From Terriglobia bacterium (GTDB lineage: Bacteria > Acidobacteriota > Terriglobia > JAJPHL01): DNA of 37,019 nt. The notes under the pieces were generated by a model, which ran no database searches, had not been told where the DNA came from, and was given only the letters and a program-made list of their open reading frames with translations. Position numbers and translations under genes: made by a program. The stretch is from NCBI GenBank assembly GCA_021325275.1, contig JAJPHL010000040.1, positions 1 to 37,019 of the forward strand, read 5' to 3'. Of the stretch, positions 860-23,592 are shown in pieces (the first letter of the stretch is position 1; every line of letters begins with the position of its first letter).

Positions 860-3382
860 TTACCCCTTGTAGTCGAGCACGCAAGCCCAGGATGCGATCG
901 TGCTGCCCAGGCTCGTCCAGTAGCCGTATTGATCGTAGATGTCGGTGGAAAGTCCGCCATCTTTGGTCGGCATCTGCGGATCGCTGGCGTTGCGGATCGC
1001 CAGCCATTTCACATCCGACTTCATTTCGTCCACGGCTAATCCCAAAATCGCGTCATCCATTTCCACCATCGCACCCATTTTTTGCAGGCCGAAGGAGTTC
1101 TGCGCGGTATCGAACTCGAATGCATCGGTCGTGACGATCACCGCCGGGCCGCCAATCTGCGCGGCCGTGTTCGCCGCGGTAAAGACGCCGGGATTGCGCG
1201 TGAACGTTTTCACGGCCTGTCCGTAGGCGGCGTGCGCGGCTTTCACCTGCGCCACGTTCGGCGCGGTGAGTCTCGAGAATTGCGTCAGTTGCCCGTTGGT
1301 AGGAACGGTGTACCCGCTGCTGAACGACTTGTGATTGAACGCCGCGCTCTTGAAATTCTTATCTAGCTTGAAGACCGCGGTATTCGCGACGATGACATCG
1401 CCTAGCTCAAGCTTCGCGCCGATCGCCCCGGCCGTCCCGGAGGTGATCGCGAGTTTGGGTTGGGCCTGCTGGATGACTTGCTTGAACATGTCCTTCACCG
1501 GCATCGACGCGTTGTCGCGCGCCAAGTGGAAGTTCGATTTGAAGAGCAGCACCTTGCGGCCGCCGATCAGAATCGGCATGAACTTGCCGATGTAGTGGGC
1601 TTCGGCCGCGGGCGCGCGCCCGGTGGAACGGCCGGCGAATTTGGAATCCCACTGATTGGTGTATTCATACCAACCGCTGGTGGCGCCTTTCGCCGGCATC
1701 GCCCAAGTCCCGGGAGTCAGAGCCGCCGCCATCGCGTTCGCTTCGGCCGACGTCCAGGTGAAGATGACGAAATCGGCCTGCGGCAACTCCGCGTCGGAGC
1801 TCTTGAACTTGAACGACGAATCCGGCTGCGGCGACAGATTGGCAGGCCACGGAATCGGCGCGATCGAATGTTGGTTGACCACCGTCACACCGAAGCCGAG
1901 ACCCGGGGCCGCCATTGCGTCTTGATCGAGCGGGTTGAAGTCGATGACCTTCGCAGCGAGCGGATCCACCTGGATCTCCGGATTCTTGTGAAGCCGGCGC
2001 ACCGGTTTGACGATCATCATGTCCTTCGATCCCGTGCCCCAGATCGGATCGTTGGCGAAGCTGCCGTCCAAAGCTGCGCTGATCAGTGTGGTGAACGCCG
2101 CATATTGCGCGGGCTGTTGCGCCACAGCCAATGTGAATCCCGCCAGAAGCTGCGCATCGTCGCCGTTTCCAACGACGGGGAAGCCGTTCTGCAGCCGTCC
2201 AGCGATGGAAAGCGTGGTGTTCTCATCGCCGTCGTCCCACGTTTCGATGTCCTGCACGGAGTGGCCGCCCAGCGCGGCCAGTTGCGCCGTGGCGATCATC
2301 GCGCCGACTTTGCGCGCGCTGTCCTGCATATCGGCGATCGGATATTCTTGTTGGAAGTTGACGGTCTGTCCGTTGATTCCCGTCGCCGTACCCATCAGTT
2401 CGATGGTGGTGGCGCCGGTTCCCAGGAAGGCGCCAAGCGCGGTCAACTCGTCGATGTATGAATTGCGCGTGCTCTGATTGAGTCCACTGAGCGTCTCGAC
2501 CGCACCCTGAATGAGCCCCAGACGCAGCAGGTCGGTGGGGTGCACGTCGAAATCGCCGTTTTCGTCGGTGCCCGAGGCGTTCCGTAGTGCCGGCGTCTTG
2601 GCTTTAGGCTTGGCGAACTGGCCGATGAAGACCGCCAACAGCATCGCGAGGTTGTAGCCGAAGGATGGTCCCATGTTGAGAACGCCGTAAATGTCGGCTG
2701 CGGCTTCATCCATCCAATAATCCCAGAGCACGGCTTTCCATTGATCGGCGGAAGCCGGGAAGACCGAGTAAACCTGTTGCCGCAGTTCCTGCATCAGACC
2801 ATGGTCGGCGTGGATCACGTCGTGGCCGCCGGTCTCGTGGGCCAGGCTGCCGAACAGGAACGGATGGTCCATGAACGTCGACGGCATGCTGACCACGCCG
2901 ATATTTCCTCCCGTCAGGTTCGCGATGTCGTCGCAGGGCACGGTAAACGGTCCCTGGCTGGGGTCCGACTGATACACGGCCAACGGTGGCAACTGCTCGC
3001 TCAATTTGATTCCCAGGTTGCGGCGCGTGCTCTTATTCAAGAACGACACGTATAAGTCGGATATCACCGCTAAAAAGCGATTCATTTCCGGGGCGATCGT
3101 TTTATCGGAGTGTTGGTAGACGCAGCCCGTAAGCGTCTCGACGTAAGAAACGTCGCCCGGCGCGATCCGCGCGAAAATACTGGCGGCGCGGTCGAGCAGG
3201 GGCGTCACGTAACCGGCCTGGAACGGCGCCGGGAGTAACGGCGCGGATTTCGATACCATGCCCGTTACCTTGCTGGAAGTGGGTTTCGCTCCGAAGGCCG
3301 GCGTACTGGCGGCCAGAAAGTTGGTCTTCATGAGCAGGGAATACAGAGAGTTGAAGTTGGTTTCGAGTCCCGCAGTAGCCAT
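860..3382 (-). CDS. Zincin-like metallopeptidase / nucleoside-phosphorylase-like fusion protein
   Basis: An 840-residue protein with no signal peptide and no clear membrane segment. The first half holds HETGGHD at 182-188, a HExxxH variant of the zinc-peptidase HExxH motif, followed by more His residues (191, 194) and DEAAAD at 225-230, which looks like the downstream Glu ligand region of gluzincins. The last third (about 535-835) resembles the PNP/MTA-nucleosidase fold: a strand-rich start near 536, TSGTAGAIG at 648-655 followed by LGDVIVAN, VEMDDA near 773-778 and IRNASDP near 796-802, which correspond to the GTAGG, VEME and R-x-SD elements of that family. The ATG follows GGAG. It stands alone, convergent with the SDR gene. 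The domain calls are by eye; the biological role is unknown. Possible roles include nucleotide/nucleoside cleavage coupled to proteolysis, as in defence or signalling effectors, but nothing in the context proves this. Confidence 0.7.
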   Translation of the reverse strand: MATAGLETNFNSLYSLLMKTNFLAASTPAFGAKPTSSKVTGMVSKSAPLLPAPFQAGYVTPLLDRAASIFARIAPGDVSYVETLTGCVYQHSDKTIAPEMNRFLAVISDLYVSFLNKSTRRNLGIKLSEQLPPLAVYQSDPSQGPFTVPCDDIANLTGGNIGVVSMPSTFMDHPFLFGSLAHETGGHDVIHADHGLMQELRQQVYSVFPASADQWKAVLWDYWMDEAAADIYGVLNMGPSFGYNLAMLLAVFIGQFAKPKAKTPALRNASGTDENGDFDVHPTDLLRLGLIQGAVETLSGLNQSTRNSYIDELTALGAFLGTGATTIELMGTATGINGQTVNFQQEYPIADMQDSARKVGAMIATAQLAALGGHSVQDIETWDDGDENTTLSIAGRLQNGFPVVGNGDDAQLLAGFTLAVAQQPAQYAAFTTLISAALDGSFANDPIWGTGSKDMMIVKPVRRLHKNPEIQVDPLAAKVIDFNPLDQDAMAAPGLGFGVTVVNQHSIAPIPWPANLSPQPDSSFKFKSSDAELPQADFVIFTWTSAEANAMAAALTPGTWAMPAKGATSGWYEYTNQWDSKFAGRSTGRAPAAEAHYIGKFMPILIGGRKVLLFKSNFHLARDNASMPVKDMFKQVIQQAQPKLAITSGTAGAIGAKLELGDVIVANTAVFKLDKNFKSAAFNHKSFSSGYTVPTNGQLTQFSRLTAPNVAQVKAAHAAYGQAVKTFTRNPGVFTAANTAAQIGGPAVIVTTDAFEFDTAQNSFGLQKMGAMVEMDDAILGLAVDEMKSDVKWLAIRNASDPQMPTKDGGLSTDIYDQYGYWTSLGSTIASWACVLDYKG

Positions 3383-3561: not shown

Positions 3562-3664
3562 TTGCACTGCGATGGTTACAGTGTTCGAGGTGACGCCGTT
3601 TACGGCCATGCTGAGTGTAACGGCGCTGCCTCGGCCCAACGCTTTGTGGCACCTGCGCGTTCAC
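3562..3664 (-). pseudogene. Frameshifted remnant of a TIGR03437-type C-terminal domain
   Basis: Reading the minus strand from 3664 gives [11 protein letters not shown]. After a single extra base the next frame gives GSAVTLSMAVNG and then VTIAVQ. This is the exact end of the C-terminal domain seen intact in the two genes further right (VNAQIPQSV...GSAV...VNGV...VTIAVQ). Only the last 35 or so residues remain, and they begin about 20 nt after the stop codon of the neighbouring gene. It is a decayed fragment, not a gene. The 301-bp gap 3383-3683 otherwise holds only the promoter region of the 860-3382 gene. Confidence 0.8.
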
Positions 3665-3683
3665 TTGTTTGCCGGAGTTGCCC

Positions 3684-5045
3684 CTAGTTGCAGTTACCGG
3701 TACTGAAATACGTCGTGCACCTTGCGTTGAATGCATAGACGGCGGCGACGCCGGCTAGCAGCAGCGCGGCCACCATCGCCGACACCCACACCAAGGGTAC
3801 AGTGGCCACTCCGAAGATAGCCAAGACCAGAATCAATAGCGCCGCCAGGAGGCTGGAATAGAACAGGCACATTGCGTATCGGCAATCCCAGCATGGGTTA
3901 CAAGGTGGGCACAGCTGGTAACACAGAAGAGCAATGAGGATCATCAGGGTCGCGAAGATAGCTCCAAATGGTCCAAAAAAATGTCCTCCGATAAACGGAA
4001 GGACGATTGAATGAGTAGCAAGCGGAAAGGTTGAGCAGGCCCACATCGCAAAGAAAACCAGGACAACAAGGAACACCAGGAGGCAGCACCAGCAGAAAAA
4101 CGACGGCTTGCTTGAATTTGAGTTCCCGCCGTTCGAGGTGGGGCAGGACGGGAGGTTCACCGTGATCGACTCATCCCCGCACCCCGCCGGTGTGTTGGTG
4201 GTTACCGTGAACTGCTGCGCGCTGCCACCGGCGTAAGAATATGGGCCCAACACCAGATTGACGGTTCCTCCTGTGCTCGAGGTCGTTCCTCCCGTCTGGA
4301 CATGGCCGAACGCATCGCTGAACTGTACCGAGAAAGGAGCGGAGCCGGTCACCACGGCTGTCACGCTAACACTCACGTTTCCGTTGGAGTCGCACTGCCC
4401 AACGGTAGGTGTCAGGTTGGAACTGGGACACGGCGGACAAAGATCCAAAGTCTCCGGAAAACTTACCAAATTTGCGCAGGTCAGCGGCGGACTCCCGGTA
4501 CTCGTGACCTGTACTGAAAACGTCACCGGTCCCGGCGTCAGAAACTTACCTGTCACCGTGTATGTTCCATTGGCCGTGATTGTGGCGTACGTGCTGCCGT
4601 TGTATTGCGCTAGCGCACTGAACGAATTGCCGCCGGAGACTTGGATGGTTGTCGCGATTGTGACGAAACCGCCGGGCCAGCACGGGCCGATGGTCTGGCC
4701 AGTGATTGTAATGGTCGGGCACGCCGGCGGGCAATTAACGACGAACGTTCCTTCCGCCACTGTGCACCCACCGGTCGTACAAGAAGCTTTAACGAGAATC
4801 CCGGGCTCCGCTCCGCATTCTGCACAGGCAGGGAGGGCCGCGCCAGGAGCCGGAAAGTCCTTGGTCCATTGACCGCTGGAAGCGACGGTTGCCGTCAAAG
4901 TTTCCGTCAACGCGTCTCCGCATCCGATCTGGACGGACACGGTCTTGCAGCCACCGACCGTGGCCGTTCCATTTACCGTCAAACCAGTTAACTTACCGCC
5001 GGTGAGAATCCCCTGAACATCGGTGATGCCAATACTACAGGCCAT
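3684..5045 (-). CDS. Cys-rich surface-type protein with C-terminal four-helix membrane anchor
   Basis: I do not recognise this family. The 453-residue product starts at the ATG at 5045, which follows GAGGT with 7-8 nt spacing; an upstream extension is out of character. Residues 1-310 are rich in Thr, Ser, Gly and Val with many Cys-Pro-x-Cys pairs and look like two or three beta-sandwich (Ig-like) modules. The C-terminus has about four membrane helices (near 317-335, 358-378, 393-412 and 418-440), with Cys clusters (CWCC, CPPCNPCWDC) in or between them. There is no N-terminal signal peptide, so how the beta domain would be exported is unclear; it may be cytoplasmic or use the C-terminal helices. 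It lies 22 nt downstream of a small membrane-protein gene and is visibly poorer in GC than its neighbours. Confidence 0.7.
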   Translation of the reverse strand: MACSIGITDVQGILTGGKLTGLTVNGTATVGGCKTVSVQIGCGDALTETLTATVASSGQWTKDFPAPGAALPACAECGAEPGILVKASCTTGGCTVAEGTFVVNCPPACPTITITGQTIGPCWPGGFVTIATTIQVSGGNSFSALAQYNGSTYATITANGTYTVTGKFLTPGPVTFSVQVTSTGSPPLTCANLVSFPETLDLCPPCPSSNLTPTVGQCDSNGNVSVSVTAVVTGSAPFSVQFSDAFGHVQTGGTTSSTGGTVNLVLGPYSYAGGSAQQFTVTTNTPAGCGDESITVNLPSCPTSNGGNSNSSKPSFFCWCCLLVFLVVLVFFAMWACSTFPLATHSIVLPFIGGHFFGPFGAIFATLMILIALLCYQLCPPCNPCWDCRYAMCLFYSSLLAALLILVLAIFGVATVPLVWVSAMVAALLLAGVAAVYAFNARCTTYFSTGNCN

Positions 5046-5067
5046 TGGGTGTACCTCGTCTTTGCGG

Positions 5068-5385
5068 TCAACTGTGTTCCGGTTCGTGGAACCCAATTTG
5101 TGGGCCCCAAATCTTGCGCAACAAGATCGCTCCCATGTGCGCGGAGAACAGGAGCGTACTGGGGACTGCAACCGCCAGATACCAGAAGGCAGCGATCTCC
5201 AAACCCTCGACGTGCCGGAAGAAAAGGTAGGCGGTCCAGCCCGCCACGGAAAGCGCGAAACTCGAACCAATGCAGTAGATGCACGTCCCCAGTTTGGAAT
5301 GTAGCGGACGCGGTGCAGGGGGATCTTCTGGTCCAGTTACCACGACGAATCGTGTTCCACGCCCGCAATTGCAGTCGCTCACGGT
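5068..5385 (-). CDS. Small two-helix membrane protein
   Basis: About 105 residues. The best start is GTG at 5385, which has GAGG five nt upstream; a TTG at 5400 in the same frame is an alternative (110 residues). A stop codon at 5406-5404 limits any further extension. The N-terminal part is soluble and Cys-containing (CNCG). Two hydrophobic helices follow, roughly residues 36-56 and 65-90, and a short charged tail ends the protein. No family is recognised. It is the first gene of a two-gene unit with the Cys-rich membrane protein 22 nt downstream, so the two probably act together in the membrane. Base composition is lower in GC than the flanking genes. Confidence 0.6.
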   Translation of the reverse strand, partial: TVSDCNCGRGTRFVVVTGPEDPPAPRPLHSKLGTCIYCIGSSFALSVAGWTAYLFFRHVEGLEIAAFWYLAVAVPSTLLFSAHMGAILLRKIWGPQIGFHEPEHS

Positions 5386-5489
5386 AACCTCGACCCGCAA
5401 TTCTCAAGAGACGATTCGCGAAAAGCACAAATCGGCCATCATTGAGTTTCTCTTCACGGGTTGCTCAGCCAGTTCCTGACCCGCCACCT

Positions 5490-5517
5490 ATTATCACTAA
5501 ATTATTTAAGTTTGCAA
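5490..5517 (-). promoter_or_regulatory. Sigma70-like promoter for the two-gene membrane cassette
   Basis: On the minus strand TTGCAA (5517-5512) and GATAAT (5495-5490) are separated by 16 bp within an AT-rich stretch. Transcription would start near 5483, about 100 nt before the proposed GTG start. The rest of 5401-5639 holds no gene that I can support. Confidence 0.5.
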
Positions 5518-5639
5518 CATTTATTATTGAAATGCCTTCTATTTCATCCACAGTTTTCCCGTGTCATTTTCCATTCTAGCCGGGACGGATCGTGAGCGGA
5601 CCGAGCAAGCAGTTCAGGTGGTAGGGCCACGTGTCGCGG

Positions 5640-7550
5640 CTACTGCACTGCGATCGTTACGGAGTTCGACGCGACTCCATTAACCGTGATCGTGAGTGCG
5701 ACCGCGCTTCCCGTCGCGACGCTCTGCGGAATCTGCGCGTTCACTTGATACAAGCCGACGAATCCCGGCGCGAGTCCCGAAAAACTCGGTGTCACCGCGA
5801 CTCCGCCAATCGTCATCGACACGCTCGCCGTTGTGGTTTGTCCCGACGCCGCCGCGCCGTCGGCCGGAGGATTCGCGACGGCGCCCAGTCCGCTGCAATA
5901 CACGGTGATGAATTGTCCGCGTGCCACCGGTTGCGCGCTGACGCCTGGAATCGATCCCGCCGGCGCGGCGAACGTCGCGGTGTTGGCGATTTGAATCGCG
6001 CCCTGACCCGATCCCGATGCGTTGATCGTGAAAATTCCCGGACCCGCTGAGCCGAGCGTCATCGTGTACGTATTGCTCGCTTGTCCGTTCACGGTCACTA
6101 CAACGGATGCGGATGCCCCTGTCGCTTCCCAAGGAATCTGGAAATTGATTTGTCCAGCAGAAACGAAAAACAGCGGCGCGGCGACGCCGTTCACCGTGAC
6201 GCTCACGCCTCCGAGCGACGTCGGCAGCGGCAGCGACGATGCCGCAACGGTTGACGCAGCGAGATTCGTGCCGAACAACGACACAATCGCGCCGGCTGCA
6301 GGCGCCAGCGTCTTCGAGAAACTCGCGCCGTTCACGATTCCGCCCGCGGGAATCGCGGGCGCGGGTCCGCTCGCGCCGAGCCCCGGCACTTCCCGGACGC
6401 GGTTATCATTCGGGTAGGCGACGCCGTTCACCGTACCGGGATAAATGTACTCGGCGATGAACAGATTGCCGCTGGAGTCGAAAGCGATTCCGAGAGGAGT
6501 GATGACGGCCTTCGTCGCGGGCCCACCGTCGCCCAACGGCGGTTGGGGAACTTGCGTCAAGCTGTCTCCCGTTCCGGCAACGGAGCTGATCGTCCCGGCC
6601 GGAGTTATTTTTCGTATCCGGCGGTGGAGGGTATCGGCCACAAAGAGATTGCCCACCGAATCGATGGCCAATCCAACGGGATCCAAGATCGCATTGGTGG
6701 CCGCACCGCCGTCTCCGCCTGGACAAATCGGGAAGGTAGAGCAAACGTCGAAGTTTTGGCCATTGCCGGCGATCGTCGAAATCACGCCGGACGGCGTGAC
6801 TTTGCGAACGCGATAGTTGAACAGATCTCCGATATAGAGATTCCCCGCGGAGTCGAGCGCCAACGCGGTTGGACTATGGAGTTGTGCTTTCGTGGCGGGG
6901 CCTCCATCGCCGGAAAAGCCGGCGGTTCCGGTTCCCGCGATCGTGGTGATGATTCCCGCGGCGGAAACTTTGCGAACGCTTTGGAATAGCGCATCGGCGA
7001 TGTATAGATTGCCCGCGGCGTCGATCGCCAGGGCCTGGGGATTCACCACGCCGCTGGTCGCCGGTCCACCGTCGCCGTTGGTGCCGGTGACCACTTGACT
7101 TTGGCCGTTGCCGGCATACGTTGTGATCGTGCCGTCGGGTGTGATTTTGCGGACGCGGTTGTCTCCTTCCGCGATGTACAGATTCCCGGCGGAGTCCAAC
7201 TTCACATCGCGCGGGCTGAGAATGTTGGCGCCGGTAGCGGGACCGCCATCGCCAAGAATGGGATTTAATTGTCCAGCCGCGGGCCCGCCGTTGCCGGCGA
7301 ACGTTGTGATCGTGCCGTCGGGCGTGACTTTGCGGATGCGGTTGTTGGCGAGATCCGCAATGTAGATGTTGCCCGCGGCGTCCACGACCACGGCGGACGG
7401 CTGGTTGAGTTCCGCGGCCGTAGCCGGTCCGCCGTCACCGGAAAACCCCACCGAACTTCCTCCCGCGACAGTGGAGATGTTCTGAGCGGCGGTCAAAGAG
7501 GAAACCACCAGCAGCGCGGCTCCGAGAAAAGCTTGTGTTTTGGAATTCAT
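5640..7550 (-). CDS. Secreted NHL-repeat beta-propeller protein with TIGR03437 C-terminal domain
   Basis: 636 residues from the ATG at 7550, which begins a clean signal peptide (basic start, hydrophobic core, TAAQ cleavage region) and follows GAAGGG. Six NHL blades follow, each with a core like [10 protein letters not shown] then RKVTPDG, most preceded by the loop GDGGPAT; together they should form a six-bladed propeller. The last 230 or so residues are the Solibacter-type C-terminal domain ([40 protein letters not shown], final VTIAVQ). It is an exported protein that probably binds a ligand or cell-surface component; the function of the C-terminal domain is not known. It is the last gene of a three-gene operon, starting 14 nt after the previous stop. 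Confidence 0.9.
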
Positions 7551-7564
7551 TCTTTGGTTTCCCT

Positions 7565-9346
7565 TCACTGGACGGCGATCGTCACTGAATTCGACGCGAC
7601 CCCGTTCACCGAAATCGACAGCGACACTGCGGAACCCGGCGTGACACTCTGCGGAACTTGCGCGTTCACTTGATACAAGCCCACGAAGCCCGGCGCGAGT
7701 CCCGCGAAGCTCACGGGCGCGCTTTGACCACCGATCGTAGCCGTTACGTTTCCCGATGCCATCGAGAGTGTGCTGCCACTGGCCGCGGCGCCGGTGGCAG
7801 GTTGGTTCGACACCGCGCCTAAGCCGCTGCAATAAATCGTGAGGTAACTACCTCGCGACACCGGTTGCGCGCTCGCGCCGGGGATCGATCCGGCCGGCGC
7901 GGCGAACGTGCTGGAGTTGGCCAGTTGGATCGCGCCCTGCCCCTTCCCCGACGAGTCGATGGAAAAGATTCCGGGCGCTACACCGCTGAGCGAAACAATC
8001 AACGGAGTGCTGGTGCCGGCCGCATTCGTCACTGTCAACGTCGCAGTGGTTTGGCCGAGCACTTCCCAAGGCATCTCAAAATTGATTTGGCCTGCACCCA
8101 CGAAAAACAGCGGCGCGGCGACGCCGTTCAATTTCACGGTCACTCCGCCCAGCGTGGTCGGCAGCGGCAGCGTGGTTGCCACGTTGTTGCCGCTCGCAAA
8201 GTTCGTCCCGAAGATCGAGGTGATTCCCGCGGCCGTCAACGACGCTGTGTAACTCGCGCCGCCTACCACACCCGTGGAGGGAACCGTCGGCGTGTTGCCG
8301 CCGCTCGTCGACGCCAACGCCGGGGGCAAGCAGAATTTCCAGATTTGCCCGCTGCTGGTGCTGGGCCGCACCGAAGCGTACATCGCTACGTTGTCGACGG
8401 TAAAAAACGACGCGCAGTTGGACGTCTTGTATAACGTCGAGCCGCCGCCGGTCGCGCTCACGTAGCTGAATTGCGCGCCCACACCTACGCCGGTGCCGCA
8501 GTTGTTGTCAGTGGAATAGAGCGCGTAGCCATTCACCGGCAACGCCTCCACCGACCCGAACTGCACACCGCTGGCCAGCGTCGTCAACGCGCCGCTGGAC
8601 AAGTTGGCCTTGTACACGCCCTGTTCCGCGCCGCTGGTGAAGAAAATGTTGCCGGCGAAATCGAGCGCCACGTAGTAGGCGGGCTTCGACGAATTGATGA
8701 CCGAAACAGATCCGCCGGTTTTGGCGACGCGAGCCACGCCTCCTGTGCCACCCAGAATCGGATACTGACCGAAGTAGACGTTGGTGCTGTCTACGTCGAG
8801 CGAGATCGGCGTCACCAGTCCTTGCGCCAAAATCTGTTTCGATTGCGACGCCTTGTTGAAGCTCAGGATTTGACCATCCGCCTGAATGCCCGTGCCGGCC
8901 ACGGCCACGTAGACGTTCGTGGCATCGCCCTTGATCTGAGTCACGGTGCTGAGTCCGCTGGCCAAGCTCACGGCCGTCCCGCCGGTCAGAGGAACCACCC
9001 ACACCGAACCCGTACCTGGATTCGGGTTGGCGGCCGGTCCAGGTTTTCCGTTCGTTGCAAAGTAGGCGTTGCTCGAATCCACATAGATGCCGCTCACTCC
9101 GATCGTCCCGCTTCCCGGAATCGTGGCCAGCACTTGGACGTTGCCACCGGCCAGCGGCACGCGCAGCAGCCGGCCGGTTTCGTCGCCGAAATAGATGTAC
9201 GTGCCATCGTCCAAAACCTGGCTGTCGGTGATCGCACCGATGCTGGCCAGCATGGTGTCGGTGCAGGATTGCGCCGCCGCGGGCTGGGCCGCCGTCACGG
9301 CGAACAGAAATGTGAGGGGAGCGAGAATTCGGAGCGTATTTTTCAT
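7565..9346 (-). CDS. Secreted propeller-like protein with TIGR03437 C-terminal domain
   Basis: 593 residues with a signal peptide (hydrophobic core near 9-20, AAAQ before Ser-Cys). Residues of about 30-345 form repeated units with patterns such as [19 protein letters not shown] and VYFGQYP, which suggests a beta-propeller of the quinoprotein/DUF5050 type. The last 235 or so residues are a full TIGR03437 domain, closely matching that of the next gene ([27 protein letters not shown]). It starts 4 nt after the stop of the 212-residue gene and ends 14 nt before the NHL gene; its TGA overlaps the ribosome-binding region of that gene, so coupled translation is likely. Confidence 0.87.
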
Positions 9347-14391: not shown

Positions 14392-14504
14392 CGTTGTCGG
14401 ATTCTTTCGGGCGTATCGACCGGGAGTGCGGAGTCATGCTGTCGATTTCGAGATACAATCAATCCGTGTTCGGCGACGCATCACTGACATTTCAGGAGTT
14501 CATC

Positions 14505-15098
14505 GTGCACGAGCCCCTGCCGCTGGCCGTGATCCAGGAAGCCGTGCTCGAGTTCCTGCGCGATCGCCAGGACGCCGCGCTTTTCGGCGCGCAAGCCGTG
14601 AACGCCTACGCGGACGTGTCGCGGCTCACCGAGGACGTGGATATTCTGTCCACGCGCGGCGCGGACTTAGCCGAGGACATACGCGAATTCCTGGCGTCGC
14701 GCTTTCACATCGCGATGCGAGTGCTCGAGATCGGCGCGGGGAAGGGCTTTCGCGTTTATCAGGTTCGCCAACCGAAGAATCGCCACTTGGCCGATGTGCG
14801 TCCCGTCGCGCAGCTACCTGCAACGCGGCGCGTAGCAGGAATTCTGGTGGTGACACCAGAAGAACTCATCGCCGGCAAAGTGGTCGCGTACCATGCGCGG
14901 CGGGGACAGCCAAAATCCTTTAGCGATCGCCGAGATCTTGCGGTGCTGCTGCTCGCTTTTCCGGAGCTCAAGGAAGAATCGGGTCCCGTTCGTGAGTGCT
15001 TGCTGCGGAGCGGCGCCGGCGGTGATTTTCTCGCCACGTGGAGTGAAATCGCTGCGCAACCGATCGCCGCTGAAAACGACGAGGACGAGTTCGCTTGA
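14505..15098 (+). CDS. Nucleotidyltransferase, AbiEii/DUF6036 type
   Basis: About 197 residues from GTG 14505, chosen because AGGAG lies six nt upstream and the conserved part begins at once; an in-frame ATG at 14436 (weaker GGAG) is the alternative. The nucleotidyltransferase core is visible: LFGAQAVNAYA at 27-36 (equivalent to the GG-x-A-x-x-x-HG motif but with Gly-Ala), TEDVDIL at 42-48 giving the metal-binding Asp44/Asp46, a likely third Asp at 97, and the family's later KVVAYHARRG and SDRRDLAVLLL segment. Relatives are toxins of type IV toxin-antitoxin systems. No AbiEi-like or other antitoxin gene lies next to it, so it may be solitary or have another role. Its TGA overlaps the next start (TTGA). 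Confidence 0.75.
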   Translation: MHEPLPLAVIQEAVLEFLRDRQDAALFGAQAVNAYADVSRLTEDVDILSTRGADLAEDIREFLASRFHIAMRVLEIGAGKGFRVYQVRQPKNRHLADVRPVAQLPATRRVAGILVVTPEELIAGKVVAYHARRGQPKSFSDRRDLAVLLLAFPELKEESGPVRECLLRSGAGGDFLATWSEIAAQPIAAENDEDEFA

Positions 15099-19241: not shown

Positions 19242-21086
19242 ATGCGCACTTGTATGATTCTCTTGGCAGCCGGGCTACTGGCCTGGGCCTTCGCTGCTCC
19301 TCCTCCTGGCGCCGGATCTTTCGCGCCCTACGATTCTCGCGCCAAGGCGATTCTCGCCAAGATGTCGCTGGACGAGAAAATCGGCCAGATGACCCAAGCC
19401 GACAGCGCCTCGCTCAAAGATCCATCCGACATCGGGACTTACGCATTGGGCTCGGTGTTGAGCGGCGGCAACTCCGATCCTCCCGAGGGCAATTCGCTGA
19501 AGAATTGGTCGGACCTCTACGAGCGTTTGCAGGCCCGCACGCGCAACACGCGCCTGCGCATCCCGCTGCTGTATGGCGTCGACGCCGTGCATGGTCACAA
19601 CAACGTGCTGGGCGCTGTGGTTTTTCCGCACAACATCGGCTTGGGATGCACGCGCAACCCAAACCTTGTGGAAAAAGCCGCGCGCGTGACGGCCGAGGAA
19701 GTTCGCGCCACGGGGATCCAGTGGGCGTTTGCGCCGTGCGTCACCGTGCCCCAGGACGAGCGCTGGGGACGCACCTACGAAGGCTTTTCCGAGGACCCGC
19801 AGATCGTCGCGCAACTCGGCGAGGCCGCGGTGCGTGGACTGCAAGGGTCGAGTCTCGCCAATCCTACGGCGGTCGTCGCCTGCGCCAAACATTTCATCGC
19901 CGACGGCGGCACGGCGTGGGGAACAAAGCACGGCGGCCCCGGTCCAGGTCCCGGTCTCGACCAAGGCGATGCACAAGTCGACGAAGCCACGCTGCGATTG
20001 ATCCATCTACCCGGCTATGTTTCCACGCTGCGTGCGGGCGTGGCCACGATCATGCCCTCTTACAACAGTTGGAACGGCCAGAAGGTGTCGGGCAACAAGC
20101 ATTTGCTCACCGAAGTCCTGAAAAACGAACTGGGCTTCGATGGTTTTCTGATTTCCGATTACGACGCCATCGACCAAGTGAATCCCGACTACAAGAAAGC
20201 CGTCGAGCAATCGGTCAACGCCGGCATGGACATGGCCATGGCGCCGGATACTTACAAAAAATTCTTTCTGACGCTGCGGGAACTGGCGCTGGAGGGCCGC
20301 GTGCCGATGTCGCGCATCGATGATGCCGTGACGCGCATCCTGCGCGTGAAGATTGCCGCGGGACTTCTTGACGCAAACTATCAGGGTAAAGCGGACACCA
20401 CACTGCAAGCCAAATTTGGGTCGAAGGAGCATCGTCAAATTGCCAGACAAGCGGTGCGCGAGTCGCTGGTGCTTCTGAAAAACGACGGCAAGATCTTGCC
20501 GCTTGCAAAAACGGCGGCGCGCATCCACGTGGGCGGCAAGAGCGCCGACGACATCGCCAACCAATGCGGCGGCTGGACCGTCGATTGGCAGGGACTCAAC
20601 GGCGGCAAAGGCGGAGTTTTGTTTCCCGGCGGCGTCACGGTGCTTTCGGCGATCCGGCAAACGGCGTCGAGCTCGACGCAAATCACATACGCGAAAGACG
20701 GCACGGGCGGCGAAGGCGCGACCGTGGGCGTCGTAGTGATCGGCGAACGTCCCTACGCCGAGGGTTTCGGCGATCGCGCGGACTTGGCGCTCGACGCCGC
20801 GGACGTGGCGGCGGTGAAAAACATGAAATCGGCACGCATTCCGGTGGTGGTCATCGTGATGTCGGGGCGTCCGGTGATTTTAGGCGACGTGCTCGACAAG
20901 GCCGACGCCGTTATCGCCGCGTGGCTGCCGGGCACCGAAGGGGCGGGGATCACCGACGTTTTGTTCGGCGACTTCGCGCCCACTGGAAAACTGTCGTTCT
21001 CGTGGCCGCGGTCGATGGATCAAGTGCCATTGCGCACGCGCTCCGGGGCTCCGTTGTTTCCGCTGGGCTACGGGCTTTCTTACTGA
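19242..21086 (+). CDS. Glycoside hydrolase family 3 beta-glucosidase, secreted
   Basis: 614 residues with a signal peptide (about 1-19, AFAA end). The GH3 N-terminal barrel has DEKIGQM at 44-50, the substrate-binding [10 protein letters not shown] at 111-120, KHFIADGGT at 216-224 and the nucleophile Asp306 in [10 protein letters not shown]. The second alpha/beta domain begins near 400 ([16 protein letters not shown]) and runs to the end; the C-terminal fibronectin-like domain of longer GH3 enzymes is missing. The layout matches exo-acting enzymes such as barley ExoI, so the substrate is probably cello- or laminari-oligosaccharide released outside the cytoplasm. No Shine-Dalgarno is seen; TAATAT at 19228-19233 lies eight nt before the ATG. 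Confidence 0.94.
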
Positions 21087-21109
21087 TGTTTCTGCTAGAA
21101 TGCATGCCC

Positions 21110-21394
21110 ATGAGCAAAACACGTGTTGCGATCTTCGTTGCTGCCACCCTAGTGCTTGCGATTTGCATCGCCGTCGCGCAACCCGCGCGCAACGTTTCTG
21201 CCGGCAAACATCCCAATCTCGCCGCCGCGCAGAAGTTCAGCCAGCAAGCGTATGACAAGATCATTGCCGCACAAAAGGCCAACGAGTGGGACATGAATGG
21301 TCATGCCGCCAAGGCCAAGGAGCTGCTCGATCAAGTAAACAACGAGCTGAAGCAAGCGGCCCAGGCGGCGAACGCAAACAAGGGCAAGAAGTAA
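21110..21394 (+). CDS. Small secreted helical protein
   Basis: 94 residues from ATG 21110; in-frame ATGs at 21086 and 21104 are alternatives, the first overlapping the GH3 stop. A signal peptide spans about 1-25 (hydrophobic core VAIFVAATLVLAICIAV, AVAQ end). The mature part of about 70 residues is Ala/Lys/Gln-rich and helical, ending in NANKGKK. It lies 23 nt after the GH3 gene and is probably co-transcribed with it. No function can be assigned. Its end is 10 nt from the convergent YeiH-type gene, and GC-rich inverted segments near 21395-21421 could form a terminator hairpin. Confidence 0.7.
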   Translation: MSKTRVAIFVAATLVLAICIAVAQPARNVSAGKHPNLAAAQKFSQQAYDKIIAAQKANEWDMNGHAAKAKELLDQVNNELKQAAQAANANKGKK

Positions 21395-22956: not shown

Positions 22957-23319
22957 CTACCTAAGCCGCAGACGGCGGCTAGCCAAGCGTCTCGCAACTG
23001 CGGTTATGAAGCGATCATCCTCAACGAGCCGCTCGTAGCCGATCTGGACAGGATCGGTCTCCAACGATGACCGCAAAGCCGAGTTGATCTGTGTCTGGTA
23101 GGCTGCGGCGTCGGGCCGCGCGGCTCGCGCCTTGAAGTGTTCGACGATATCGGCGTCCAAGTACATCGTCACGCGAACTTTGCAGTTGCGCGGTGAAGTT
23201 TCGGCAAGGTTCGCTCGATGCCGGCGCAGTATCATCCGGATCGTTTCGCGCCGGACCGCGAACTCCGGCTCAACCTTCCTTCCCCTAGAGGAGCTAGATC
23301 CTTTTTCTTTGTTTTTCAT
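22957..23319 (-). CDS. brnA: BrnA-type antitoxin
   Basis: 120 residues from ATG 23319, preceded by a strong GGAGGA. The C-terminal half carries the BrnA ribbon-helix-helix signature KVRVTMYLDADIVEHFKARA followed by YQTQINSALRS. The N-terminal half is basic. In characterised systems BrnA neutralises the BrnT ribonuclease and represses the operon. The start overlaps the end of brnT by 26 nt, the usual toxin-first order of this family. The tail after residue 100 (VARRLASRRLRLR) is very basic. The antitoxin looks intact although the toxin N-terminus is damaged. Confidence 0.85.
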   Translation of the reverse strand: MKNKEKGSSSSRGRKVEPEFAVRRETIRMILRRHRANLAETSPRNCKVRVTMYLDADIVEHFKARAARPDAAAYQTQINSALRSSLETDPVQIGYERLVEDDRFITAVARRLASRRLRLR

Positions 23320-23584
23320 ATTCCTCCACCATCCAAGGCTCTGCACGCCGGGCATGAATGATTCGCACTCGATCGTCCGGCCGCTCCGTGAAGCAGACAT
23401 AGACCATGCCGAGCGGGACCAGACCGATGATCCCATAGCGGACTTCCGACTCCGTCGAGTGCGCCTCGTCCACGAACTCGACGGCGTGGGGATCGGCGAA
23501 AACGCCGGCTGCCTCGGTAAATCGGACGCCGTGGCGGTTCTCGTTCCGGTCGGCCTTTCCTGTCGTCCCAACTCGAAGAACCAA
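23294..23584 (-). CDS. brnT: BrnT-type toxin, N-terminus damaged
   Basis: The body of BrnT is clear: RHGVRFTEAAGVFADPHAVEF, then YGIIGL, VYVCFTERPDDRVRIIHARRAEP. The expected start (F-E-W-D-x-R-K-A-x-x-N) is present but split across three frames. F-F-E lies in the frame beginning GTG 23592, W-D-D-R-K in another, and A-D-R-N onward in the frame given here. Two single extra bases, one in a T/G run (GTTGGG) and one in AAAGGCC, account for this. The coordinates give the 96-codon open part from TTG 23584. It is either a decaying toxin or a sequencing error at two homopolymers. BrnT is a RelE-fold ribonuclease when intact. Confidence 0.65.
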   Translation of the reverse strand: MVLRVGTTGKADRNENRHGVRFTEAAGVFADPHAVEFVDEAHSTESEVRYGIIGLVPLGMVYVCFTERPDDRVRIIHARRAEPWMVEEYEKQRKRI

Positions 23585-23592
23585 TAGGTCAC

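Follow-up and report, generated by a model that had tools for sequence, protein, structure and literature searches.

Organization of the locus

We have analysed a window of 37,019 bases, which is the whole of one contig within a genome of 6.86 Mb and 75 contigs. The window carries a cassette of two minus-strand genes, B and A, separated by 22 nt (Table 1). Two start codons were considered for gene B, and from the sequence the GTG at 5382 is more likely to be used than the TTG at 5400, because a GAGG lies upstream of it with 5-nt spacing. A GAGG is likewise found 8 nt upstream of the ATG of gene A. When the six reading frames were compared by means of a codon model, for which 12 genes from the surroundings served as training set, the own frame of each gene received the highest score, and at gene A its own frame alone is stop-free across 453 codons.

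The 22-nt gap and the common strand are compatible with an operon, and we infer that A and B are co-transcribed. A promoter shared by the two genes had been claimed in a preliminary description of this DNA. This claim was not confirmed, as the consensus match at 5517-5490 does not exceed chance (two sites in the region, against 1.2 +/- 1.2 in shuffled sequences). A scan for RNA features returned nothing but one tRNA, far from the cassette.

On the minus strand, the cassette is flanked on one side by two genes with TIGR03437 domains (5640-7550 and 7565-9346) and on the other by a gene for an 840-aa protein (860-3382). The presence of TIGR03437 (Soli_cterm) genes in the window would suit a member of the Acidobacteriota. 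The N-terminal half of the 840-aa protein belongs to no family but contains an HETGGH motif, and its C-terminal part has a PNP_UDP_1 (nucleoside-phosphorylase) domain. When 200 class members were searched, this protein had, beyond its own genome, one full-length relative (44%) and five that match the C-terminal part only. This gene was considered as a third member of the cassette and was left out: the full-length relative, in genome G016, has no such neighbours, the codon use of the gene is normal and the wrecked TIGR03437 piece intervenes. Elsewhere in the window, a BrnA-type antitoxin domain (PF14384, E 9.8e-10) occupies the C-terminal half of the ORF at 22957-23592 (-), and an AbiEii-type nucleotidyltransferase domain (PF08843, E 4.8e-7) is encoded at 14394-15098 (+).

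Table 1. Features of the cassette and its surroundings, with the two related ORFs on the Rhizobium plasmid
Feature	Position (strand)	Description
Gene B	5068..5400 (-)	DUF3624 hairpin protein; 110 aa from TTG 5400, 104 aa from GTG 5382
C-x-x-C of B	5272..5283 (-)	C40 and C43 (numbered from TTG 5400), start of helix 1; invariant in five proteins
H88 of B	5137..5139 (-)	Invariant His in helix 2; putatively level with C-x-x-C, from the helix boundaries of the predicted hairpin
Gene A	3684..5045 (-)	Orphan of 453 aa, ATG start; three predicted beta-sandwich domains, four C-terminal helices, 28 Cys
A domain 1	4722..5045 (-)	Residues about 1-108, beta-rich in the AlphaFold model
A domain 2	4431..4721 (-)	Residues about 109-205; forms an internal duplication with domain 3, Cys aligned
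A domain 3	4140..4430 (-)	Residues about 206-302
A four-helix membrane part	3702..4109 (-)	Helices 313-343, 349-378, 384-411 and 418-448
A Cys cluster CYQLCPPCNPCWDCRYAMC	3867..3923 (-)	Residues 375-393, six Cys; end of helix 2, loop, start of helix 3
Decayed TIGR03437 (Soli_cterm) C-terminal fragment	3563..3667 (-)	Insertion of one base; stop codon missing
AT-rich gap upstream of B	5401..5639	GC 0.473; separates B from the NHL/TIGR03437 gene
Rhizobium ORFs	NZ_CP013558.1 (L083) 20140-20616 (-) and 20781-21254 (+)	Divergent, back-to-back; 42% identical to each other

Composition of the cassette and the adjoining gene fragment

The GC contents of A and B are 0.576 and 0.583, compared with 0.604 for the window, and their GC3 values of 0.661 and 0.658 stand at percentiles 3.3 and 2.5 among 121 genes. 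The synonymous-codon scores of both genes are lower than those of all 121 comparison genes, a sample from the window and from nine other regions of this genome, each of 20 kb, that was picked by a codon model and is thus biased to typical genes. In a sample selected by length only (n = 106 ORFs), 10 ORFs score under A and 10 under B, and several of these ten low scorers resemble antisense shadows by eye. The composition of A and B is accordingly atypical, at the low end, yet not extreme, and it is in this form that the deviant base composition noted in the preliminary description can be retained.

The broken domain fragment that had been reported beside the pair was also recovered. The stretch at 3563-3667 is the tail of a TIGR03437 domain, with one inserted base and a lost stop codon, and it aligns with the TIGR03437 tail of the neighbouring gene at 5644-5747 (76%). 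Four further places in the genome match the fragment, namely this neighbour's tail and three others. Three of the four alignments, including the neighbour's, stop at 3667, which is 16 nt past the stop codon of A, and the fourth, a match of 36 bases, ends earlier. Because the tail fragment carries an insertion, has lost its stop codon and loses its homology at this point, we consider that a TIGR03437 gene was truncated beside A. Acquisition of the cassette beside this decayed gene is plausible, and the cassette probably replaced the decaying gene or landed next to it. No clear two-sided insertion boundary was seen at the cassette, and no empty site turned up in the genomes compared, which were the own one in the family search and one of another family in the gene-order search. 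The repeated TIGR03437 domains could be recombination points.

Three TIGR03437 tails stand in a row in the same orientation (3563-3667, 5640-7550 and 7565-9346, all minus strand), one of them wrecked.

Protein B and the DUF3624 family

Protein B matches PF12292 (DUF3624) over residues 34-97 with 30.4 bits (E 5.3e-7), and with 30.6 bits in the genome search. B thus resembles the family as a short two-helix protein that scores above the gathering cut-off of 27 bits. The function of the family is unknown, and a search of one paper library found no paper naming DUF3624 and likewise none for TIGR03437. The cassette differs from the family model in that B adjoins a Cys-rich multi-helix protein, and the Cys-rich segments of the relatives of B described below lie outside the 76-position model. 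The pair had been taken to represent an unknown family. This view no longer applies to B as a DUF3624 member, and it remains valid for A, which is an orphan in all collections searched.

An AlphaFold model of B, computed with a three-row alignment, predicts a hairpin of two helices (41-62 and 68-97) with a pLDDT of about 87-96 over most of its length, in which the Cys pair precedes helix 1. Because the C40/C43 pair and H88 are about equidistant from the turn of the hairpin in this model, they should be neighbours near the cytoplasmic face, as judged from the helix ends. According to the positive-inside rule, the charged residues that flank the hairpin N- and C-terminally would place this face of B in the cytoplasm. 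The Cys pair is regarded here as a mark of DUF3624 on the basis of the five sequences compared in this study, not of the Pfam entry. A fold search with B gave no match under E 2.6, and thus no structural match to a redox or metal protein.

Architecture and topology of protein A

The single-sequence AlphaFold model of A is of low confidence (pLDDT 59.9, pTM 0.32). It places beta strands at residues 4-101, 111-195 and 208-297 and helices after them, and the beta-rich head with four C-terminal helices that had been described is seen in this model. In Foldseek, the model matched tandem fibronectin type III (FnIII)/Ig chains as well as bacterial adhesins, SiiE among them (best E 5.6e-6, query-normalised TM-scores of just 0.15-0.25), and in VIA-align, Z reached 9.1 at an rmsd of 11.6, mostly over residues 1-306. 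Unlike these proteins, A has C-terminal helices and no evident signal peptide, and it matches no Ig or FnIII family in Pfam or NCBIfam at E <= 1. The fold matches of the predicted head show layout, not kinship.

Domains 2 and 3 of A align with a score of 82, compared with 38 +/- 7.5 for shuffled sequences, and none of 1000 shuffles reaches this score. Support for the duplication comes from the shuffles only, because BLASTP of the two domains alone is not significant (E 0.45). Domain 1 was rejected as a third copy, since its scores lie within the shuffles (238 and 150 of 1000 reach them).

In terms of amino acid content, A is unusual in two respects. On the one hand, it contains up to 21 Cys per 310-residue stretch, the highest value among 96 ORFs of at least 310 aa sampled from its own genome, and the next ORFs have 17 (CxxCH-type by eye) and 16 (by eye an Fe-S protein). 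On the other hand, its K+R content is the second lowest of these 96 ORFs; the head, rich in T, G, S and V, contains 5 Lys over its 310 residues and is devoid of Arg. The Cys richness and the unusual architecture noted in the preliminary description are supported by these numbers. Several other K+R-poor ORFs open with an apparent signal peptide (by eye). No signal peptide is evident in A, where the highest 12-residue hydropathy near the N terminus is 1.22; the absence that had been claimed can be upheld as far as hydropathy and inspection go.

These features raise the question of the side on which the head of A is located. Around the helices, basic residues are limited to K313, R389 and R442. 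All three are on the head side, and by the positive-inside rule the head would thus be cytoplasmic, as would the Cys loop. The composition of the head is of the exported type, so that the evidence on its location is conflicting. We considered that A may be an envelope or surface protein whose Ig/FnIII-like head leaves the cytoplasm with no cleavable signal, by N-tail translocation or otherwise, for adhesion or surface contact, with B aiding its insertion or stability. The export-like make-up of the head and the Foldseek matches to tandem FnIII/Ig chains and adhesins speak for this reading, and two kinds of relatives of B have a Cys-rich tail behind a signal-like helix. It is opposed by the lack of an evident signal peptide and by the charges just mentioned, and the N-terminal tail of 310 residues is longer than the tails known to us to be translocated in this manner. 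A surface role of A is somewhat unlikely in our view. In any case, with an export-like head, no evident signal and few charges that point inward, A offers a clean topology question.

Searches for relatives of A and of the pair

In its own genome, A gave one other row (E 0.28). The family search returned the own genome only, which is the sole genome covered there, and the own genome was also the only result among 399 genomes of the class at E <= 0.001. In 297 genomes of the phylum, 11 other rows were obtained at E <= 0.1 (E 0.005-0.084), none of them convincing; the ORFs were read in four of the 11 (L028, L032, L033 and L035) and are unrelated proteins. An 8-mer scan of 84,980 species genomes for A and the pair produced 17 stretches, none of which was confirmed. 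Nothing convincing for A was found in plasmids, phages and viral contigs, and no sequence match exists in the PDB. As far as these searches reach, A is an orphan by sequence comparison.

The combination of A and B was found nowhere else in the class and phylum genomes, the 84,980 species genomes, plasmids, phages and viral contigs; the gene-order search covered one other genome, of another family. Accordingly, the occurrence of the pair at different loci elsewhere, which would have favoured a mobile unit, was not seen in these collections. The opposite outcome, ordinary codon use with the pair at one locus in all relatives, was not observed either. Of the "mobile functional unit" suggested earlier, the pair itself thus provides no second example, and indirect support comes from two relatives of the B module on a mobilizable Rhizobium plasmid.

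Distant relatives of protein B

PF12292 was detected in 2 of 399 genomes of the class and in 7 of 396 of the phylum, and the three-row profile in 7 of 297 phylum genomes, the own genome being included each time. The 12 other phylum rows lacked LGxCxxC...W...H when read. With B as query, no relatives were found in plasmids or viral contigs, and none were found with the Rubrivivax protein in phages or with the group-2 protein in plasmids. When B was compared by phmmer with the loci collected, the single row (L014, E 0.0071) was an unrelated Arg-rich frame.

Four distant relatives were collected, which are 24-27% identical to B. Across B and these four, only L, G, C, C, W and H are invariant (L-G-x-C-x-x-C...W...H), and all four relatives have a Cys-rich segment within the same polypeptide. 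The first, of 296 aa, was found by HMM in a metagenome-assembled genome of group-2 acidobacteria (G063; L053/L027 5763-6653) on a contig judged to be QHZD01000002.1, and its 21.7-24.4 bits are below the PF12292 cut-off. It resembles B and A in having the DUF3624 hairpin, at its C terminus, no evident signal peptide and a very high Cys content, but its Cys part is a row of YPCGIxWC-like repeats ahead of the hairpin instead of the predicted beta-sandwich domains of A. The next gene (L027 6803-8728) encodes a phosphoesterase (PF04185) with a Cys- and Lys-rich membrane leader, not a signal peptide, at its N terminus. A phage-type integrase gene is located near the DUF3624-like gene in this genome.

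The second relative, a Rubrivivax gelatinosus protein of 155 aa (L059 3285-3752), was found through a DNA pattern and matches PF12292 below the cut-off (E 0.0012). The pattern had preset SKLG[ST]CxxC...W for the Rubrivivax protein alone, and the His was in no collection pattern. Genome-wide, the DNA pattern gave 22 stretches, two of which continue as a hairpin (the known group-2 contig and Rubrivivax), and the other 20 look like chance. At the Rubrivivax locus (L059 3285-7985), CHAT-TPR and phage-lysozyme-like proteins are encoded upstream of the DUF3624 protein on the same strand.

The remaining two relatives are ORFs of the mobilizable plasmid pRphaN841a of Rhizobium phaseoli (Table 1). One was reached by tblastn from the Rubrivivax protein (E 5e-11), the other is a second copy adjoining it, and the gene table consulted for the plasmid lists neither. 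The ORF at 20781-21254 has no PF12292 match at E <= 1, and it was filed as DUF3624-like through the Rubrivivax protein only. By sequence comparison, the chain of kinship to the Rhizobium ORFs thus runs through one Rubrivivax protein. B itself matches the second Rhizobium copy with E 0.006, in a search space of one 82-kb plasmid. The Rubrivivax protein and both Rhizobium proteins share with B the LGxCxxC...W...H hairpin and differ from it by an invariant RR leading a third helix that ends in AFA, and by an exported-looking Cys-rich tail in the same chain. The RR and third helix resemble a twin-arginine signal.

Discussion

Considering these relatives, we asked how the two genes of the cassette may be connected. 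One explanation regards A and B as an accessory unit carried as cargo by mobile DNA, e.g., a membrane effector with a partner or immunity protein, and not as a housekeeping unit. In line with such cargo, A and B have atypical codon use, lie beside the wreck of a TIGR03437 gene and are absent from the relatives searched, and genes resembling B occur on a mobilizable plasmid and, in the group-2 genome, close to an integrase gene. However, no integrase or other mobility gene adjoins the cassette in the window, A and B have no PADLOC match, PHROGs gave just one chance-level row for B, and there is no relative on a viral contig. We consider this explanation unlikely.

It is also conceivable that A and B are neighbours that share no function, B being an ordinary DUF3624 protein and A a fast-evolving, lineage-specific one. 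The pair was found in one genome only and A has no relatives, which fits this picture, and the neighbourhood could indeed be accidental. On the other hand, the two genes lie 22 nt apart on the same strand, their GC3 values and codon scores are nearly equal, and both products are Cys-bearing membrane proteins. An accidental neighbourhood of this kind appears improbable to us.

The explanation that we prefer, and put forward tentatively as a possible rather than a probable one, is that B and A form a membrane metal or thiol site serving a Cys-rich partner. In this proposal, A and B would be two parts of a small inner-membrane complex. The C-x-x-C at the cytoplasmic end of helix 1 of the DUF3624 hairpin and the His of helix 2 would constitute a metal-binding or thiol-redox site, and this site would load metal into the Cys-rich partner or set its thiol state. 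In the relatives, the partner would be part of the same chain, as an N-terminal head of Cys repeats in the group-2 protein and as a tail behind the twin-arginine-like third helix in the Rubrivivax and Rhizobium proteins. In the window, it would be supplied in trans by A, with its three predicted Cys-edged beta-sandwich domains and the six-Cys stretch between helices 2 and 3. The contact between A and B and the metal or redox activity are putative elements of this proposal.

A function of the hairpin in the handling of Cys-rich partners is suggested because four relatives carry a Cys-rich segment in cis and B has a Cys-rich neighbour. The twin-arginine (Tat) pathway is a route for folded proteins, and a Tat-like exit of the tails would fit loading before export. 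A C-x-x-C plus a His is a weak signature, and among the neighbours scanned no metal-handling or Dsb-like gene adjoins the cassette.

In a wider sense, DUF3624-like hairpins may be a widespread membrane module for Cys-rich partners in cis or in trans, whose cytoplasm-facing Cys-Cys-His site metallates the partner or sets its redox state, either before the partner takes its place in the envelope or while it does so; we regard this generalisation as rather doubtful. What was known is that B falls in an uncharacterised family, and we know of no description of the combination of A and B or of the association of the hairpin with Cys-rich segments. No function has been assigned to the curated family DUF3624, and our findings suggest a purpose for the hairpin and the residues that could be mutated. 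If the proposal is true, it would give the first mechanistic handle on DUF3624.
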